Origin: Lacinutrix sp. WUR7 | GTDB lineage: Bacteria; Bacteroidota; Bacteroidia; Flavobacteriales; Flavobacteriaceae | Length of the DNA stretch: 64,000 bases | Direction of reading: 5' to 3' | NCBI RefSeq assembly: GCF_016864015.1 | Contig: NZ_CP045067.1 | Coordinates: 2,614,001-2,678,000, forward strand | In this document: piece after piece, positions 38,352-63,801 of the stretch | How positions within the stretch are numbered: the first letter of the stretch is position 1 | How the letters are laid out: each line of letters opens with the position of its first letter | Notes under the pieces: generated by a model | What the model was told of the DNA's origin: nothing | What the model saw: only the letters and a program-made list of their open reading frames with translations | Databases searched by the model: none | Position numbers and translations under genes: made by a program

Positions 38352-38577
38352 AGCTACTTTTATCTTAAAGGTTTGCGAATTATAAGTATCTAAATATAGT
38401 GTAGAAATAATTAGGCAACAATAAAGTACATCATATTACGGATTTCAGTGTATTTATGTAAAATCACTATTTGATTTTAGTTGTTTGTAAGTCAGTTTTT
38501 TAAGTCCTGAAAACTGATATTTATCATAGTATTTCATTAAAAAGAGTAGTACTTTAATTACTATAAATTTTAAGGTC

Positions 38578-39312
38578 ATGAAACCAAAGAAAAACCCAAA
38601 AATAGATGTCGGAAGAAATAGCGGTATTTATTTTCTTCTCGGAATTAATTTGATGCTCTTATTAACTTGGCAAGCTTTGGAGCAAAAAACCTATGATAGA
38701 GAAGCGATAAAAAAAGACTATGTAGAAATTGCTCAGGAGATAGAAGAAGATATACCTATTACCAATGTAAACACGCCACCGCCACCACCTCCTCCAGTGG
38801 AGCTTGCAACACCAGAAATAATTACGGTTGTAGAAGATAAGATTGATGTAGAAGAAACCGTTATGGAGAGTAGCGAAACAAGTCAAGAAGAGTATATTGA
38901 AAAACAGGAAATTGTGGAAATTGAAGATGTTATTGCGGTAGAAGAAGTAGAAGAAGAGATAGAGGTAGCATTTGCCGTTGTTGAAAATGTTCCTGTTTTT
39001 CCAGGTTGTACAGGAAATAATACGGAACTAAAAAAATGCTTTAATGCTAAAGTATTAGCGCATGTAAAAAAAACATTTAAATACCCAATACAAGCGCAAG
39101 AGTTAGGTATACAAGGCAAAGTATATGTGATGTTTATTGTAGATAGAAGCGGAAATATTAGTAATATTAGAACTCGAGGTCCAGATAAGTATTTAGAAAC
39201 CGAGGCTAGTAGAATAATTGATGCTTTGCCAAAAATGACTCCTGGAATGCAACGGAATAAACCGGTAAATGTTCCGTATTCTATTCCTATAACTTTTAAA
39301 ATAGATGAATAA
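38578..39312 (+). CDS. Energy transducer TonB
   Basis: 244 residues. One N-terminal membrane helix (NSGIYFLLGINLMLLLTWQALEQ), a periplasmic Pro run (NTPPPPPPPVELATPEI, about 63-80), a long Glu/Val-rich extension (about 80-140), then the TonB_C domain: VPVFPGCTG, FKYPIQAQELGIQGKVYVMFIVDRSGNISNIRTRG and PSIPITFKI-type end (VPYSIPITFKIDE). Transmits proton-motive force to TonB-dependent receptors; a receptor lies 1 kb downstream. Confidence 0.93.
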   Translation: MKPKKNPKIDVGRNSGIYFLLGINLMLLLTWQALEQKTYDREAIKKDYVEIAQEIEEDIPITNVNTPPPPPPPVELATPEIITVVEDKIDVEETVMESSETSQEEYIEKQEIVEIEDVIAVEEVEEEIEVAFAVVENVPVFPGCTGNNTELKKCFNAKVLAHVKKTFKYPIQAQELGIQGKVYVMFIVDRSGNISNIRTRGPDKYLETEASRIIDALPKMTPGMQRNKPVNVPYSIPITFKIDE

Positions 39313-55024: not shown

Positions 55025-55071
55025 ATGATATATGTCATATTTTAAGATACATAACCTCTGTAATTTTGGAG
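55025..55071 (+). promoter_or_regulatory. Crp/Fnr-type activator box and -7 element of hemN
   Basis: Palindrome ATGATATATGTCAT at 55025-55038, then a 22-bp spacer and TAATTTTGGAG at 55061-55071. The -7 element TAATTTTG fits TAnnTTTG and no -33 TTG is present. The box centre is about 41 bp before the predicted start, the standard class II activation position. Confidence 0.7.
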
Positions 55072-55085
55072 AAGAATTTTTAGGT

Positions 55086-56450
55086 ATGGCAAATTCACTA
55101 GTTAATAAATATAATATTCCAGGACCTCGTTATACGAGTTATCCTACGGTTCCTTATTGGAATAATGATACTTTTTCATTAAAATTGTGGAAAGCTTCAT
55201 TAATACAATCTTTTAAAGAAAGTAATGATACGGAAGGTATTAGTTTATATATTCATTTACCATTTTGCGAAAGCTTATGTACCTTTTGTGGTTGCAATAA
55301 GCGCATTACTAAAAGACACGAAGTAGAATCACCATATATTACAGCTGTTTTAAAAGAATGGGATTTGTATTGTGCGCTTTTAAAAACAAAACCAAATATT
55401 AAAGAATTACATTTAGGAGGAGGAACACCAACGTTTTTTACTCCACAAAATTTAGAGCGATTAATAAAAGGTATTGTAAGAAAAGCTACGCTTGCTGAAA
55501 ATTATGAATTTAGTTTTGAAGGACATCCTAACAATACAACCAGAGCGCATTTACAAACGCTTTTTGATTTAGGATTTAAACGTGTAAGCTTTGGTGTACA
55601 AGATTATAATGAAACCGTTCAGAAAGCAATACATAGAATACAACCTTTTGAAAACGTAAAACGAGTTACAGAAACGGCGCGAGAAATTGGCTATACCTCC
55701 ATAAGTCATGATATTATTTTCGGATTACCATTTCAAACCGAAGCATATGTAGAAGAAACCATTAATAAAACCAAATTATTAAAGCCAGACAGAATTGCTT
55801 TTTATAGTTATGCACATGTACCTTGGATTAAAGGAAACGGGCAACGTGGTTATAAAGATAGTGATTTACCAACTCCAGAAAGTAAAAGAAACCAATACGA
55901 GTTAGGTAAAAAAATGCTATTTGAAGCTGATTATGTAGAAATAGGGATGGATCATTTTGCATTGCAAACAGATACTTTATACCAAGCAACAACCAATAAA
56001 GAATTGCATAGAAACTTTATGGGGTATTCATCCTCTAAAACACAAGCTATGATAGGTCTTGGAGTTTCTTCCATCAGTGATAGTTGGTATGGTTTTGCAC
56101 AAAACGTAAAAGGTTTAGAAGAATATTACCATTTAATAGACGAAAATATTATTCCTGTGTATCGCGGACATATATTAAATGAGGAAGATTTAATTATTAG
56201 AAAACACATTTTAAATTTAATGTGTCAATTGGAAACTTCTTGGTCACCAACCGAAAATTATTTTTCAGAGTTACCGGATACACTAATAAAATTAAAAGAA
56301 ATGGAACAAGATGCACTAGTTGAAATCTTTTCCAATAAAATAATAATAACAGAAAAAGGAAAACCCTTTGTAAGAAATATTTGTATGGCTTTCGATTTGC
56401 TTTTGCAACGTAACAAGCCAGAATCGCAACTATTTTCAATGACCATTTAA
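55086..56450 (+). CDS. hemN: Oxygen-independent coproporphyrinogen III oxidase
   Basis: 454 residues from ATG at 55086; a more upstream ATG at 55032 overlaps the activator box. N-terminus MANSLVNKYNIPGPRYTSYPT is family-standard. Radical SAM cluster in HLPFCESLCTFCGCN (CX3CX2CxC), GGGTPTF, FEGHPNN, FGVQDYN and HDIIFGLPFQT. The C-terminal HemN domain holds MGYSSSKTQAMIGLGVSSIS. It makes protoporphyrinogen IX without oxygen, for haem in the anaerobic respiratory proteins below. Followed after 12 bp by a universal stress gene. Confidence 0.97.
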   Translation: MANSLVNKYNIPGPRYTSYPTVPYWNNDTFSLKLWKASLIQSFKESNDTEGISLYIHLPFCESLCTFCGCNKRITKRHEVESPYITAVLKEWDLYCALLKTKPNIKELHLGGGTPTFFTPQNLERLIKGIVRKATLAENYEFSFEGHPNNTTRAHLQTLFDLGFKRVSFGVQDYNETVQKAIHRIQPFENVKRVTETAREIGYTSISHDIIFGLPFQTEAYVEETINKTKLLKPDRIAFYSYAHVPWIKGNGQRGYKDSDLPTPESKRNQYELGKKMLFEADYVEIGMDHFALQTDTLYQATTNKELHRNFMGYSSSKTQAMIGLGVSSISDSWYGFAQNVKGLEEYYHLIDENIIPVYRGHILNEEDLIIRKHILNLMCQLETSWSPTENYFSELPDTLIKLKEMEQDALVEIFSNKIIITEKGKPFVRNICMAFDLLLQRNKPESQLFSMTI

Positions 56451-56462
56451 AACCAAAAAATC

Positions 56463-57296
56463 ATGAAAAAAATTATTGTACCAATAGATTTTTCTGAACA
56501 TTCAGAATATGCCTTAGAAACCGCTGCTGTTTTAGCTAAAAAATATGATGCAGAAATTTTAGCATTACACATGCTAGAACTTTCTAATGCGCTTATTTCT
56601 AATGCGGAAAATATGCAACAAGAAGAAACTGTTTTCTATTTAAAACTTGCTGAAAAAAGGTTTCAAGAGTTTTTAGATAAAGATTATTTAAAGGATGCTA
56701 AAGTAACTCCGTTGGTAAAGCATTTTAAAGTTTTTAGTGAGGTTAGTGAAGTAGCTAAAGAACACGATGCAGATTTAATTGTAATGGGTTCTCAAGGAGC
56801 GAGTGGATTGAAAGAAGTACTTATTGGTTCTAATACAGAAAAAGTGGTAAGACATTCTGATATTCCTGTTTTAGTAATTAAAGAAAATCCTATTTTAACA
56901 GATTTTGAAAACGTAATTTTTGCTTCCGATTTTTCTAAAGATGCAATAAAACCATATTTAAATGCTAGTAAAATGATGGAAACATTAGATGCTAAAATGC
57001 ATTTGGTATATGTAAATCTTCCAGATAATCAATTTAGAAGTTCTACGGAAATAGAAAAACGTGTGGCAACCTTTTTAAAAGAAGCCGAAGGTAATCTGGA
57101 TAAAATGAAACAGGTCGCTTACGTAAATGATTACTCTATTGAAAAAGGGGTTTTAAATTATTCTAATATTATAGGTGCAGATTTAATAGCAGTTGCAACG
57201 CATGGTAGAACTGGATTAGCACATTTTTTTGAAGGTAGTATTTCTGAAGATATTGCAAATCATTCTACTTTACCAGTGATGACATTTAAAATTTAA
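56463..57296 (+). CDS. Tandem universal stress protein (UspA family)
   Basis: 277 residues with two Usp domains: about 1-145 (KKIIVPIDFSEHSEYALETAAVLAKKYDAEILALHML, then DADLIVMGSQGASGLKEVLIGSNTEKVVRHSDIPVLVIK with the ATP motif GSxxxxxxRH) and about 150-277 (VIFASDFSKDAIKPYLNASKMM, DLIAVATHGRTGLAHFFEGSISEDIANHSTLPVMTFKI). Co-transcribed with hemN (12-bp gap). Assists survival under oxygen limitation, by family and context. Confidence 0.94.
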   Translation: MKKIIVPIDFSEHSEYALETAAVLAKKYDAEILALHMLELSNALISNAENMQQEETVFYLKLAEKRFQEFLDKDYLKDAKVTPLVKHFKVFSEVSEVAKEHDADLIVMGSQGASGLKEVLIGSNTEKVVRHSDIPVLVIKENPILTDFENVIFASDFSKDAIKPYLNASKMMETLDAKMHLVYVNLPDNQFRSSTEIEKRVATFLKEAEGNLDKMKQVAYVNDYSIEKGVLNYSNIIGADLIAVATHGRTGLAHFFEGSISEDIANHSTLPVMTFKI

Positions 57297-57402
57297 CAGA
57301 AATTAATTTCTAGTATTTTTTCTAGAAAATGGAATTAAAAAATATAAAACTTTCACTTTAAAGAGGTCTTATAGTTAGTTAATTAAATTTTTTAAAGTGA
57401 GT

Positions 57403-57432
57403 AAATAGCCAAACCTAGTTTGGCTATTTTTA
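57403..57432 (+). terminator. Intrinsic terminator of hemN-usp
   Basis: 12-bp perfect stem (57403-57414 with 57418-57429), 3-nt loop, short T-run. Confidence 0.85.
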
Positions 57433-57467
57433 TGTTTAATTTTAATTAAGACAATTTCATCTTAAAT

Positions 57468-57514
57468 ATGATAAATGTCATATTTTAAAAGAAGCTTTCT
57501 TGGTAATTTTGGAG
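57468..57514 (+). promoter_or_regulatory. Crp/Fnr-type activator box and -7 element of the nos cluster
   Basis: ATGATAAATGTCAT at 57468-57481, 22-bp spacer, TAATTTTGGAG at 57504-57514: the same arrangement as at hemN. No -33 element. Transcription would start near 57518, about 25 bp before the cytochrome gene. Confidence 0.72.
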
Positions 57515-57542
57515 TATTAAAATAATCAATGAACAAAAACAG

Positions 57543-58046
57543 ATGAAAACAACACTAAAATTATTGATGGTATTATTTGTAACACTTCTAGTAAGTTGTG
57601 GAGGCAAAGAAGAAAAGAAAAAAGAAGGATTCTCTTATCAAAAAAAGGCAACAACAGAAAAAACTACAACGCCTAAAGCAGAAAAAGTTCCAGCATCTAA
57701 AAAAATAGATTTATCTAATAAAGGTGTCGGTCCAATTAAATCTGTAACACTTGGAGCAGAGGTAGATCAAGCAATGGCTACACATGGTGCAGATGTTTAC
57801 AAAAAAATGTGTACAGCTTGTCATAGAGCAGACAAAAAATTTATTGGTCCAGCACCAACAGGTATTTTAGAAAGACGTACTCCAGAATGGGTAATGAATA
57901 TGATTTTAAATCCAGAGCAAATGGTAAAAGAAGATCCATTAGCAAAAGAGTTATTAATGGAGTTTAATGGTGCACCTATGGCAAACCAACATCTTACAGA
58001 AAAAGAAGCAAGAGCTGTTTTAGAATATTTTAGAACCCTTAAATAA
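57543..58046 (+). CDS. Mono-haem c-type cytochrome lipoprotein
   Basis: 167 residues. Lipobox LLVSC (Cys19), Lys/Thr/Glu-rich linker about 22-60, then one cytochrome c domain with C90TAC93H94 and a Met ligand in GAPMANQHLTEKEARAVLEYF. It probably delivers electrons to nitrous oxide reductase. First gene of the nos cluster, 6 bp before the fasciclin gene. Confidence 0.92.
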   Translation: MKTTLKLLMVLFVTLLVSCGGKEEKKKEGFSYQKKATTEKTTTPKAEKVPASKKIDLSNKGVGPIKSVTLGAEVDQAMATHGADVYKKMCTACHRADKKFIGPAPTGILERRTPEWVMNMILNPEQMVKEDPLAKELLMEFNGAPMANQHLTEKEARAVLEYFRTLK

Positions 58047-58052
58047 ATCATT

Positions 58053-58622
58053 ATGAAACCAATCCAAAACTTCTTACTTGTTTTTGCAACTTTAGCTTTA
58101 GTAAGTTCTTGTAAAGACAATAATCAAAGTACTTCTGCCACAGATACCGAAGTGAAAACGGAAGTAACATCACAAAAAACAGGGCAAGCCTTTATTGAAG
58201 GAGACGTTGGTACAACCGTTTTAAGTGTCGCTATGGGTTCTAAAGACCATACAACGTTAGTAGCTGCTGTACAAGCTGCACAATTAGAAAATGCTTTAGT
58301 AAATGCAGGACCATTAATGGTGTTTGCGCCAACTAACGAAGCGTTTGCAGCTTTACCAGAAGGTACGGTTGAAAATTTATTAAAACCAGAAAACAAAGAT
58401 GCTTTGGCTAATATCTTAAAGTATCATGTAACTCCTGGTAACTATTCTAAAGACTTTTTAAAGAAATTTAAAAAACTAGGACAAGCTAATAATGACTATG
58501 TAAAAGTGGAAGTTGTAGATGGAGAACCAATGATTGGAGGAGCAAAAATATTAGGAAGTGTAAAAGCTGGAAACGGAATTGTACACATCATTGATAAAGT
58601 TTTATTACCTCCAACTGATTAA
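58053..58622 (+). CDS. Fasciclin domain lipoprotein
   Basis: 189 residues. Lipobox LALVSSC (Cys19). Fasciclin (FAS1) domain about 60-185: HTTLVAAVQAAQLENALVNAGPLMVFAPTNEAFAALPEGTVENLLKPENKDALANILKYHVTPG and GAKILGSVKAGNGIVHIIDKVLLPP. FAS1 proteins mediate adhesion or protein interaction. Its place between a cytochrome and nosZ suggests a helper for the respiratory lipoproteins; no cofactor motif is visible. Confidence 0.92.
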   Translation: MKPIQNFLLVFATLALVSSCKDNNQSTSATDTEVKTEVTSQKTGQAFIEGDVGTTVLSVAMGSKDHTTLVAAVQAAQLENALVNAGPLMVFAPTNEAFAALPEGTVENLLKPENKDALANILKYHVTPGNYSKDFLKKFKKLGQANNDYVKVEVVDGEPMIGGAKILGSVKAGNGIVHIIDKVLLPPTD

Positions 58623-58651: not shown

Positions 58652-60622
58652 ATGAAAAATTTACTAACATCAAGCATTGCAATGTTTGTTATCCTTTTAG
58701 GATTTACAAGTTGTAATAATGGGAATAAATCAGGGTCAAAGTCTGGTGCATTAGCAAGTAATATTGCAGAAAAAGTTTATGTTGCTCCAGGAGAGTACGA
58801 TTCGCATTATGCCTTTTTATCTGGAGGTTATAGTGGTAATGTAACAGTTTACGGTTTACCTTCTGGTAGAATGTTTAAAGAAATCCCTGTATTTTCTCAA
58901 TTTCCAACCTCAGGTTATGGGTATTCAGAAGAAACGAAACCAATGTTAAACACTTCTTATGGATTTATCCCTTGGGGAGATGCGCATCATCCAGATATTT
59001 CGCAATCTAAAGGAGAGTTAGATGGTCGTTGGCTATTTATAAATGAAAACAATACACCACGTATTGCAAGACTTAGTCTTACCACATTTGAAACCGAAGA
59101 AATTATAGAGGTACCAAATAGTGCAGGTAATCACAGTTCTTCTTTTGTTACTGAAAATACAGAATATGTAGTGGCAGGAACACGTTTTTCTGTTCCAATT
59201 CCGCAACGTGATATGCCAATTAAAGATTATAAAGGAAACTTTCAAGGTGCCTTATCTTTTATTAGTGTAGCACCAGAAACAGGAAACATGGATATTAAAT
59301 TCCAAGTTTTAATGCCAGGATTTAACTACGATTTATCACATCCAGGACGTGGGAAATCTCATGGTTGGTTCTTCTTTACAACATATAATACAGAAGAGGC
59401 TAACACGCTTTTAGAGGTGAATGCTTCACAAAATGATAAAGATTTTATTGCAGCTATTAATTGGAAAAAAATTGAAGAATATGTAAATAATGGAGGTGGA
59501 ACTATGATGCCTGCTAATTATGCACATAATGTATATGATGAGCATACACATACAGCGACATCTACTATGAAGAAAGAAGTTCGTGTTGTAAATCCAATAG
59601 AAGTTCCTGGAGCTGTTTATTTTATTCCAACACCAAAATCACCTCACGGTTGTGATGTAGATCCTTCTGGAGAATATATTGTAGGTAATGGTAAGCTATC
59701 GGCTAATTTAACGGTGCATTCGTTTACAAAAATGTTAGATGCTATTGAAAATAAAAAGTTTGCTGGTGAAGCGTACGGAATTCCAATTTTAAATTTCGAA
59801 GATGTTTTAGCTGGAGTAGTAGAACAACCAGGATTAGGACCATTACATACAGAGTTTGATGGAAAAGGAAATGCATATACTACATTCTTTATTTCTTCAG
59901 AAGTTGTAAAATGGAAATTAGGTACTTGGGAAGTTGTGGATAGAAAACCTACATATTATTCTGTTGGTCACTTAACAATTCCTGGAGGAAATTCAGGAAA
60001 ACCACAAGGTAAATACATGTTTGCAATGAATAAAATAACAAAAGATCGTTATTTACCAACAGGTCCAGAAATGGAGCACTCTGCACAATTGTATGATATT
60101 TCTGGAGATAAAATGGAATTACTTTTAGATTTTCCAACACATGGAGAGCCACATTATGCTGCTGCAATGGAAGCAGGTATTATTAAAGCACAATCTCAAA
60201 AAATCTATAAGTTAGCAGATAACAAGCATCCTTATGCAGCTAAATCAGATGCAGACACTAAAGTGGTTAGAGATGGTAAAAATGTACATATCTACTTAAC
60301 AACTATTAGAAGTCACTTTTCACCAGATAATATTGAAGGTATAAAAGTAGGAGACAAGGTATACTTCCACGTTACTAATTTAGAACAAGATTTTGATGTA
60401 CCTCATGGATTTGCGGTAATAGGTCAAAACAATTCAGAATTACTAGTTATGCCAGGACAAACAAAAACATCTGTTTGGGAACCTAAACAAGTTGGTGTAT
60501 GGCCATTTTATTGTACCGATTTCTGCTCTGCATTACACCAAGAAATGCAAGGTTATGTTAGAGTATCTGCTGCAAATTCAGACACACCAATTAAGTGGTC
60601 TCTTGGAGAAGACATTGAATAA
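58652..60622 (+). CDS. nosZ: Nitrous oxide reductase (Sec-exported, clade II type)
   Basis: 656 residues. Signal with lipobox GFTSC (Cys21), not a Tat RR signal, as in clade II. Beta-propeller with CuZ His ligands beginning WGDAHHPD (His112, His113), later LSHPGRGKSHGWFF, HNVYDEHTH, KSPHGCDVDP, PLHTEFDGKGNAYTT and EMEHSAQLYD. C-terminal cupredoxin domain with CuA ligands in YC621TDFC625SALH629QEM632. Reduces N2O to N2 in the periplasm or surface face of the membrane. Tandem hairpins follow. Confidence 0.98.
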   Translation: MKNLLTSSIAMFVILLGFTSCNNGNKSGSKSGALASNIAEKVYVAPGEYDSHYAFLSGGYSGNVTVYGLPSGRMFKEIPVFSQFPTSGYGYSEETKPMLNTSYGFIPWGDAHHPDISQSKGELDGRWLFINENNTPRIARLSLTTFETEEIIEVPNSAGNHSSSFVTENTEYVVAGTRFSVPIPQRDMPIKDYKGNFQGALSFISVAPETGNMDIKFQVLMPGFNYDLSHPGRGKSHGWFFFTTYNTEEANTLLEVNASQNDKDFIAAINWKKIEEYVNNGGGTMMPANYAHNVYDEHTHTATSTMKKEVRVVNPIEVPGAVYFIPTPKSPHGCDVDPSGEYIVGNGKLSANLTVHSFTKMLDAIENKKFAGEAYGIPILNFEDVLAGVVEQPGLGPLHTEFDGKGNAYTTFFISSEVVKWKLGTWEVVDRKPTYYSVGHLTIPGGNSGKPQGKYMFAMNKITKDRYLPTGPEMEHSAQLYDISGDKMELLLDFPTHGEPHYAAAMEAGIIKAQSQKIYKLADNKHPYAAKSDADTKVVRDGKNVHIYLTTIRSHFSPDNIEGIKVGDKVYFHVTNLEQDFDVPHGFAVIGQNNSELLVMPGQTKTSVWEPKQVGVWPFYCTDFCSALHQEMQGYVRVSAANSDTPIKWSLGEDIE

Positions 60623-61422: not shown

Positions 61423-61860
61423 ATGAAAACACTAAAACACTATTCTACTTTCATATTATTTTTAAGTTTTATAAGTTGTAATGTATCTCCTAAACCCATA
61501 GAATATGGAAGCGATGGTTGTCATTTTTGTAAAATGACCATCGTAGATAAAGTGCATGCAGCAGAGTTTGTTACCAAAAAAGGTAAAGCTTACAAATTTG
61601 ATGCAACAGAATGTATGGTTAATTATTTGGACGAGTTTGATACTTCTGAAATAGAATTATACCTAACAAATTATTTTTCAAAACCAGAAACTTTTACAGA
61701 TGCTACAAAAGCAACGTATTTAATAAGTAAAAAGATTCCTAGTCCAATGGGAGCATTTTTAACCGCTTTTAAAGATCGTTCACAAGCAGAAAAAATACAA
61801 ACAGAAAAGGGTGGAGAATTATACTCTTGGACAGAGCTACTAGATCATTTAAAAAACTAG
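61423..61860 (+). CDS. nosL: NosL copper chaperone lipoprotein
   Basis: 145 residues. Lipobox SFISC (Cys19). Cu(I) site region GSDGCHFCKMTIVD (Cys33, Cys36, Met38) and second conserved part KFDATECMVNYLDEF. Delivers copper for NosZ maturation. Followed after 4 bp by nosD. Confidence 0.96.
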   Translation: MKTLKHYSTFILFLSFISCNVSPKPIEYGSDGCHFCKMTIVDKVHAAEFVTKKGKAYKFDATECMVNYLDEFDTSEIELYLTNYFSKPETFTDATKATYLISKKIPSPMGAFLTAFKDRSQAEKIQTEKGGELYSWTELLDHLKN

Positions 61861-61864
61861 TCTC

Positions 61865-63100
61865 ATGAAAAACCGAATCCTTTTTTTTATAGCCATTTTT
61901 ATGGCTTGGTCAAGTATTGCTCAAACTATAACTGTTTGCAAAACGTGTACTGTTTCTTCAATTCAAAGTGCTATAACGCAAGCCAAAGATTTTGATACCA
62001 TAATAATTAAAAAAGGAACCTACAAAGAACATGCGATTATAGTGGATAAACCACTTACTATAATTGGTGAAAAATATCCAGTCATTGATGGGGAATTAAA
62101 AGGAGAGATAATTACCATAATTTCAGATGATGTAACCGTTGACGGATTATTCATTATAAATGTAGGTACCAGTTATACCGAAGACTATGCTGCTATTCGC
62201 GTAAAAAACAGCAAAAATTTTGTGATTCAGAACTTAGTTTTAGAAAAGCTTTTCTTCGGAATTTATATCGAAAAATCAAGAGATGGTAAAGTCTATCATA
62301 ATAAGATTATTGGGGATGCCGTGGAAGAATACAATTCCGGAAATGGAATTCAACTTTGGTATAGTAAAAACGTAGAAATTGAACACAATTTTGTGCAACA
62401 TGTTCGAGACGGAATTTATTTAGAATTCTCTGATGATTGTCTTATTAAGAATAATGTTAGTACTTTAAATGTACGTTACGGATTGCATTTTATGTTCTCT
62501 AATGACGATATCTACCAAGACAATACTTTTGAAAACAATGGTGCAGGAGTAGCGGTTATGTTTTCCAAACGTATAAAAATGTACAATAACCTTTTTAAAG
62601 AAAATTGGGGAACCGCATCGTATGGTATGTTACTTAAAGAAATTAATGATGCCGAAATTATTGGTAATACCTTTGAAGATAACACCATTGGCATCAACAT
62701 AGAAGGTTCTAATCGAATTATCTATAAACACAATAATTTTTCAAATAATGGTTGGGCAATTAAAGTAAAAGGAGCCTGTTACACCAATACGTTTACCGAA
62801 AATAATTTTTTATACAACTCTTTTGATATTGCGTACAATAGTAATGTAAATGATAATATTTTTGATAAGAATTTTTGGTCTAATTACACCGGTTACGATC
62901 TCGATAAAAATGGCGTAGGAGATATTCCTTTTAGACCTGTAAAACTGTTCTCATATATTGTAAACCGCACACCAGAAACTATTATTTTATTGCGTAGTAT
63001 GTTTATAGATATTATTGATTTTTCTGAAAAAGTATCCCCAGTATTTACACCAGATGATTTATTAGACAACAATCCACTAATTAAAAAATTAACATGGTAA
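61865..63100 (+). CDS. nosD: NosD periplasmic beta-helix maturation protein
   Basis: 411 residues. Signal peptide 1-19. Right-handed parallel beta-helix repeats (VIQNLVLEKLFFGIYIEKSRDGKVYHNKI, NVEIEHNFVQHVRDGIYLEFSDDCLIKNN, GLHFMFSNDDIYQDNTFENNGAGVAVMFS). The C-terminal WSNYTGYDLDKNGVGDIPFRP is typical of NosD/CASH proteins. It builds the CuZ site with the NosFY transporter. Overlaps nosF by 7 bp. Confidence 0.96.
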   Translation: MKNRILFFIAIFMAWSSIAQTITVCKTCTVSSIQSAITQAKDFDTIIIKKGTYKEHAIIVDKPLTIIGEKYPVIDGELKGEIITIISDDVTVDGLFIINVGTSYTEDYAAIRVKNSKNFVIQNLVLEKLFFGIYIEKSRDGKVYHNKIIGDAVEEYNSGNGIQLWYSKNVEIEHNFVQHVRDGIYLEFSDDCLIKNNVSTLNVRYGLHFMFSNDDIYQDNTFENNGAGVAVMFSKRIKMYNNLFKENWGTASYGMLLKEINDAEIIGNTFEDNTIGINIEGSNRIIYKHNNFSNNGWAIKVKGACYTNTFTENNFLYNSFDIAYNSNVNDNIFDKNFWSNYTGYDLDKNGVGDIPFRPVKLFSYIVNRTPETIILLRSMFIDIIDFSEKVSPVFTPDDLLDNNPLIKKLTW

Positions 63101-63801
63101 CCATTCATAATTTACATAAAAAATTCGGCAAAAACCAGGTCTTAAGTGGTGTGGATTTAAATATCCATGAAGGTGGTATTTTTGCTATTCTAGGACCAAA
63201 TGGCTCAGGTAAAACCACATTAATTAAATCGGTTTTAGGTATGGTTATTCCTAATAAAGGAGATATAACAGTACTTGGAGAAAACATTAAGAAAAACTCG
63301 GATTACAGACATAAAATTGATTATTTACCGCAAATAGCCAACTTTCCTAGTAATTTAAAAGTGAAGGAATTAATTAAAATGATTAAAGATTTACGTAAAC
63401 CTACAGACGAAGATCAACGTTTAATAGAATTGTTTCGATTAGAACCTTTTTTAGATAAAAAATTAGGAAACCTTTCTGGAGGAACAAAACAAAAAGTGAA
63501 CCTCGTTTTAACGTTCATGTTTAATAGTCCGTTAATTATTTTAGATGAGCCAACAACCGGTTTAGATCCAATTTCTCTAATCCGTTTAAAAGATTTAATT
63601 AAAGCCGAAAAAGCCAAAGGAAAAACAATACTTATTACTTCTCATATCATGAGTTTTGTGGAAGAAATATCCGATGAAATAGTATTTATTCTGGAAGGGA
63701 AAATTTACTTTAAAGGACCAATATCCGAATTAAAAACCAAGACCAATCAACCCGATTTCGAACATGCAATTGCGTCTATATTAACAGATAATCATGCTTA
63801 A
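63094..63801 (+). CDS. nosF: NosF ABC transporter ATPase
   Basis: 235 residues. Walker A GPNGSGKTTLIK (about 34-45), Q-loop YLPQIANFP, signature LSGGTKQKVNLVL, Walker B LIILDEPTTGLDP with catalytic Glu, and His switch TSHIM. Energises NosY/NosD in copper-centre assembly. Overlaps nosD at its start and nosY at its end by 8 bp, so these genes are translationally coupled. Confidence 0.97.
   Translation: MVTIHNLHKKFGKNQVLSGVDLNIHEGGIFAILGPNGSGKTTLIKSVLGMVIPNKGDITVLGENIKKNSDYRHKIDYLPQIANFPSNLKVKELIKMIKDLRKPTDEDQRLIELFRLEPFLDKKLGNLSGGTKQKVNLVLTFMFNSPLIILDEPTTGLDPISLIRLKDLIKAEKAKGKTILITSHIMSFVEEISDEIVFILEGKIYFKGPISELKTKTNQPDFEHAIASILTDNHA

Follow-up and report, generated by a model that had tools for sequence, protein, structure and literature searches.

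The promoters of hemN and of the nos cluster in Lacinutrix sp. WUR7 are very probably class II promoters that are activated by a Crp/Fnr-family protein and serve at low oxygen. Both lie in the window, the stretch of 64,000 nucleotides analysed here (2614001-2678000 of a genome that forms one contig of 3,987,475 bases). With high confidence, we read them as Crp/Fnr promoters of the class II type with a TAnnTTTG core, induced by low oxygen and read by an Fnr-like protein, by two receiver-Crp fusion proteins, or by both.

In the hemN promoter, the Crp/Fnr-type box ATGATATATGTCAT occupies window positions 55025..55038 (+ strand) and the -7 element TAATTTTG, a TAnnTTTG match, positions 55061..55068 (+); in the nos promoter, the box ATGATAAATGTCAT lies at 57468..57481 (+) and TAATTTTG recurs at 57504..57511 (+). 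Both boxes contain the palindromic Crp/Fnr half-sites TGAY-N4-RTCA, and a direct check gave a spacer of 22 bp in either case; the sequence-only reading, which had described near-identical boxes 22 bp before a common element, proved correct to the base. It was also right that neither promoter has a TTG at -33, the triplet there being ATT in both, i.e., the -33/-35 element is weak or missing. The two promoters further have in common the seven bases 3' of TAATTTTG (ATTTTAA), and 43/65 bases are identical in their alignment, which diverges in the middle of the spacer. For CRP and FNR, a site centred at -41.5 is the established class II position. In the available text of a study of F. psychrophilum 5' ends, TAnnTTTG occupies -12 to -5 (PMC9723704), and applying this placement to the 22-bp gap centres both boxes at -41.5 and predicts +1 at 55073 for hemN, whose start codon we took as 55086, and at 57516 for nos. 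The class II geometry proposed earlier is thus upheld by the fixed distance in combination with that placement, while the start sites, given before as 55072 and 57518, need a slight correction. Binding of an activator to the boxes, and activation by it, are what we infer.

The genes behind the two promoters belong to haem synthesis and N2O respiration. hemN (55086..56450, +) encodes an oxygen-independent coproporphyrinogen III oxidase of 454 aa (TIGR00538, 441 bits; cut-off 325) and is followed by a gene for a universal stress protein with two Usp stretches (56463..57296, +; PF00582), which is perhaps co-transcribed with it. The nos cluster begins with a gene for a cytochrome c domain protein (57543..58046, +; PF00034); a fasciclin-domain protein (58053..58622, +; PF02469) is encoded between this gene and nosZ, the Sec-dependent nitrous-oxide reductase (58652..60622, +; TIGR04246, 927 bits; cut-off 625), and NosL (61423..61860, +; PF05573), NosD (61865..63100, +; PF05048) and an ABC transporter ATPase that by position would be NosF (63094..63801, +; PF00005) come after it. 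NosZ is 100 per cent identical over the best segment to that of a Lacinutrix himadriensis record. Near the nos cluster, 2 kb past the window, lies a gene for a copper nitrite reductase whose C-terminal part is a cytochrome c domain (L051:2073-3566).

Chance does not account for the layout, in which a 22-bp spacer separates the box from TAnnTTTG. The bare box ATGAYNNNNRTCAT showed no enrichment genome-wide (38 places vs 50 for the reversed pattern), and box matches at ≤3 mismatches in the window numbered 23, fewer than in shuffles (mean 29.8). A genome-wide scan for box-N22-TAnnTTTG, as the sequence-only reading had proposed, found the composite TGAYNNNNRTCA-N23-TANNTTTG, in which N23 equals a gap of 22 when counted from the 14-mer, at 18 exact places vs 1 for the reversed pattern. 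The window itself holds 2 exact composites, whereas 300 sequences from a first-order Markov model averaged 0.003. At the looseness of 3 mismatches, no genome-wide excess of the composite was seen (223 forward and 234 reverse vs 266 and 250 for the reversed pattern); the match list of this loose search skipped some sites, exact ones in the window included, and counts taken from it deserve little trust. A gap-22 count of 24/26 came from stretches picked partly for having such sites and is not independent evidence.

Elsewhere in the genome, a gap-22 site precedes ccoNO at 2696123, with ccoP and fixG coming after ccoNO, and sites with this gap stand before the usp genes adjoining the first fusion gene (2071932, and 2072884 with one mismatch) and before an OmpW gene at 3937941. 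Further exact composites fall at 824 kb and at 2.79, 3.644 and 3.650 Mb, and a site that precedes fixI, adjoining the fnr-like gene, has a poor -7 element (GACTTTTG). Of the 18 exact places, 10 fall in an island that surrounds the second fusion gene (3.84-3.94 Mb). Inspection of this island (G000:C1:3840413-3937954; L057-L062) revealed at least 14 gap-22 boxes, 11 with ≤1 mismatch plus 3, which precede genes for a PPDK-like enzyme, erythromycin-esterase/PCMT, MCRA-family, citrate-type transporter and YtxH proteins as well as unknown genes; it is possible that this is a low-oxygen or stress island. The box at 3937941 (L062:15941-15954) has a gap of 22 on both sides, the OmpW side being exact and the side of a DeoC-type aldolase reading TCTTTTTG, and the box at 3909257 (L061:5257-5270) has gaps of 22 (one mismatch) and 23 on its two sides; in both places, a single box may serve two divergent promoters. 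Within the window, 38514-38557 comprises CTGATATTTATCAT, 22 bp and TACTTTAA, with two mismatches; it stands 20 bp ahead of an ORF (38578-39312) that encodes a TonB C-terminal domain, and is possibly a weak additional member of the set.

Conservation of the layout was observed separately for the two promoters. A search gave at least 559 NosZ loci, of which the 80 best were kept; these come from the closest relatives (79-100 per cent identity) and do not form a random sample. Of the gaps between 5 and 44, exact composites favoured 22 (126 cases), followed by 23 (15), with ≤8 for any one of the rest. A gap-22 site with ≤1 mismatch lay no more than 400 bp ahead of the nos cytochrome c gene in 79/80 loci, 74 of them exact, vs 6 matches in total for the other gaps from 16 to 28. 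In the one locus with a misplaced cytochrome c start (L148), an exact site lies ~1.2 kb before nosZ, and with this locus included a gap-22 site with ≤1 mismatch precedes nosZ in 80/80. The same NosZ loci contain the promoters of 17 hemN genes, all 17 with an exact gap-22 site; two more hemN matches, directly behind fixI (L096, L106), were outside this promoter scan. The earlier claim of one site type common to hemN and nos is thereby borne out. Among these relatives, the letters of the box vary and the gap stays constant.

The composite is likewise widespread. A survey of 120 Flavobacteriaceae genomes, one per genus, gave 1002 gap-22 composites in 111/120 genomes, vs 24 sites in 22/120 genomes for a gap-18 control and 19 sites in the 120 genomes for the reversed gap-22 pattern (a hand count of the table). 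A class-wide sample of 149 genomes, four of them of the own family, was scanned at gap 22; the composite was present in 122, vs a hand count of 13 for the reversed pattern.

Which proteins could read such a box? The HTH_Crp_2 profile matches five genes in the genome, and three of the five Crp-type proteins resemble one another in their recognition helices (GTATESAIR, GTATETAIR and GIATETLIR); those of the other two differ. The search for a Crp/Fnr-family gene, which the sequence-only reading had placed outside the window, therefore yielded three candidates, all of them indeed beyond it. One is a protein of 225 aa with PF00027 and PF13545 domains (G000:C1:2698643-2699320; L052:643-1320), whose gene neighbours those of the cbb3 oxidase, 20 kb past the end of the window, and is divergent from fixI and ccoNO. 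Six of its cysteines (C4, C7, C29, C53, C59 and C106) are invariant in 30/30 sequences, our own included. Three of these, C4, C7 and C106, align with cysteines of an FNR chain, and Asn13 takes the place of the third FNR cysteine, so that the four-cysteine pattern of FNR, whose aligned cysteines we take to be the cluster ligands, is incomplete. Its best NCBIfam match is likewise NF008365 Fnr at 101 bits, under the cut-off of 228. We call the protein Fnr-like because only three of the four FNR cysteine positions hold Cys. Exact gap-22 sites occurred in only 7 of 30 loci of such genes (~3.7 kb each, own included). In the available text of a reactor study, a Flavobacteriales CRP/FNR homologue was placed near MalR and predicted to sense carbon (PMC8510549), a reading that we did not adopt here.

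The other two candidates are receiver-cNMP-HTH_Crp fusions, the first of 350 aa (2070867-2071919; L054:4867-5919) and the second of 360 aa (3855781-3856863; L058:5781-6863), each encoded directly behind a PAS histidine kinase gene. For the first PAS domain of both kinases, FixL and DosP chains top a PDB search, and both own kinases have a His in line with the His that serves as haem ligand. A gene for such a PAS kinase is found upstream of the 350-aa-type fusion in 30/30 loci (one per genome, own included; five were examined over longer stretches), and the His is kept in 29/30 kinases beside fusion genes, our first kinase included. A nearby PAS Arg is kept in 24/30 and is Leu in our second kinase. 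The kinase L253 (genome G116) has Leu at the haem-ligand position, although a fusion gene comes next. An exact gap-22 site follows directly after the fusion gene in 26/30 loci (L054:4867-6839 and L196-L225, own included); the gene after our first fusion encodes a Usp, and its counterpart in L146 looks like a Usp by eye. Taken together, the cysteines of the Fnr-like protein and the FixL-like PAS domains favour the low-oxygen half of the earlier claim, which had allowed for oxygen or NO, and low oxygen is the likely signal.

Sites and regulators co-occur. For either regulator, a match at E ≤1e-30 counted as presence in the 120 genera, except in five genomes whose Fnr matches reached just 32-37 per cent and in two whose fusion matches covered one domain. 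The median number of sites was 15.5 in the 34 genomes with both regulator types, 6 in 44 Fnr-only genomes, 8 in 27 fusion-only genomes and 0 (maximum 2) in 15 genomes with neither, counts that are not independent draws given the kinship among the genera. Small genome size is not the full cause of the low counts, since 6 of the 15 genomes with neither regulator have 3.0 Mb or more (9 are under 3.0 Mb). Among 30 genomes chosen for their regulator class, 25 had hemN, and the promoter site was present in 4/4 Fnr-only, 17/19 fusion-only and 0/2 neither genomes, which leaves two fusion-only genomes without it. As for nos, Fnr is present in 44/49 nos genomes; the nos site is kept in five loci without Fnr (L116, L128, L138, L146 and L154), and the Crp-type matches of these five genomes are all weaker ones, which in every genome include one or more of fusion size (frame of 349-385 aa). 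A fusion matching the Fnr query more weakly than 1e-15 would escape this survey, and an "Fnr only" assignment rests mainly on the separate fusion search (E ≤1e-30). L146 (Ulvibacter antarcticus) has a fusion gene immediately ahead of its nos cluster. Since genomes with only Fnr and genomes with only the fusion keep the hemN or nos sites, either regulator type seems enough to maintain them. The sequence-only reading had expected one activator, and this part is not borne out in the form proposed: three proteins have similar recognition helices, and relatives with only one regulator type keep the box.

This leaves the division of labour among the three candidates. The Fnr-like protein alone might drive hemN and nos, with the fusions serving their own surroundings, that is, the usp cluster at 2.07 Mb and the island at 3.84-3.94 Mb. 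Such an arrangement would agree with the position of its gene beside the cbb3 genes, where the ccoNO box and its 3' flank (NTTTTAA) are like those of hemN and nos, with the retention of both sites in Fnr-only relatives, with the sites directly after so many fusion genes, and with the 4/11 island boxes that start CTGA or GTGA instead of ATGA. Yet fusion-only relatives retain both sites as well, and the two site sets are barely separable: with 62 sites from 8 Fnr-only genomes and 107 from 14/19 fusion-only genomes (a set that left out the sites of G006, G028, G039 and G050 and those of fusion-only genomes listed in the 120-genus table), the leave-one-out AUC was 0.70, too weak to sort the sites into Fnr and fusion types. 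The box at hemN and that at nos scored slightly to the fusion side (-0.65 and -1.09 bits), and in a genome with all three proteins the letters of a site do not reveal the one that acts. We give it somewhat less than an even chance. All three proteins might instead read both promoters, with Fe-S and haem oxygen sensors converging on one class II box, as suggested by their similar recognition helices and the higher site counts in genomes with both regulator types; such counts might equally mean two separate regulons, and we consider this version, too, a tentative one that falls short of even.

A regulator of another kind would be an NO sensor. The nos genes are targets of DNR/NnrR-type regulators in other bacteria, and with the copper nitrite reductase just past the cluster, NO can be made. 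That such a protein drives hemN and nos is nonetheless improbable: in a PDB sequence search with the Fnr-like protein, a DNR chain was a much poorer match (8e-08) than FNR chains (~1e-20), the cbb3 genes carry the same site type, and the invariant cysteines and FixL-like kinases indicate oxygen. More remote still, to the point of being negligible, is the idea that the hemN/nos resemblance arose by chance or by recent copying of a promoter. The presence of just two exact sites in the window and their 43/65 identical bases would suit this idea, but each promoter is separately conserved in relatives, where box letters and spacers differ, and the 22-bp gap is constant across the family.

Returning to low-oxygen class II activation, we envisage that a Crp/Fnr-type dimer on the 14-bp palindrome at -41.5 would compensate for the absent -33 TTG and bring RNA polymerase to the core element TAnnTTTG of Bacteroidota 22 bp downstream, such that falling oxygen would lead to oxygen-independent haem synthesis and N2O respiration being made together. 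The readers of the box would be the cysteine-rich Fnr-like protein and/or the two response regulators with their FixL/DosP-like PAS partner kinases. We lean, by a little, toward a wider picture as well: a low-oxygen regulon of the Bacteroidia built on one rigid layout (TGAY-N4-RTCA, 22 bp, TAnnTTTG) and read interchangeably by an Fnr-like protein with rearranged cysteines and by a collapsed FixL-FixJ-FixK relay, either of which would carry hemN and nos if the other were lost. As described in the available portions of two reports, F. psychrophilum makes more of its cbb3 oxidase and of its enzymes for haem synthesis when oxygen is limiting (PMC9723704), and N2O respiration of aerobically grown Cloacibacterium CB-01 begins only below 1-2 uM O2, or below 4-6 uM O2 after an earlier exposure to anoxia (PMC11168931).

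Several parts of this picture have counterparts elsewhere. Class II promoters of E. coli FNR carry TTGAT-N4-ATCAA at -41.5. The promoters described here are alike in their inverted TGAT/ATCA half-sites, the N4 between them and the centre at -41.5, and differ in having the core TAnnTTTG and not TATAAT, an outer base A and not T, and half-sites of the form TGAY. The Fnr-like protein itself resembles E. coli FNR in the three aligned cysteines; unlike in FNR, one cluster-cysteine position is not Cys and other invariant cysteines are present. In rhizobia, the targets of FixL-FixJ-FixK2 include cbb3, hemN and denitrification genes. The available text of one source names the FixLJ-FixK2-NnrR cascade and nos together (PMC6710368). 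With this system, ours has in common a kinase with a FixL-like PAS domain, a receiver and a Crp-type activator; in contrast, receiver and Crp module form one polypeptide in both fusions, in place of a separate FixJ, so that the FixJ-to-fixK transcription step would be skipped. The combination of FixL-like kinase and receiver-Crp fusion departs from the systems that we know or found in the literature. Among the titles listed from the open-access literature, which mostly lacks subscription papers, none dealt with a receiver-Crp fusion or, for Bacteroidetes, with this box; as evidence of novelty this is weak. Finally, the Pseudomonas Anr core regulon, according to the available part of its description (PMC6588701), likewise places hemN under a low-oxygen Crp/Fnr activator, in a different phylum and with a different promoter core and regulator set.

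For the organisms concerned, flavobacteria with such a nosZ are candidate N2O sinks, and the timing with which N2O reduction switches on is a practical question. A site that is fixed family-wide provides a testable rule for the genes that would be switched together, namely hemN, nos, cbb3 and usp. The receiver-Crp fusion beside a FixL-like kinase, if our reading is true, would be a one-step form of the classic three-step oxygen cascade.
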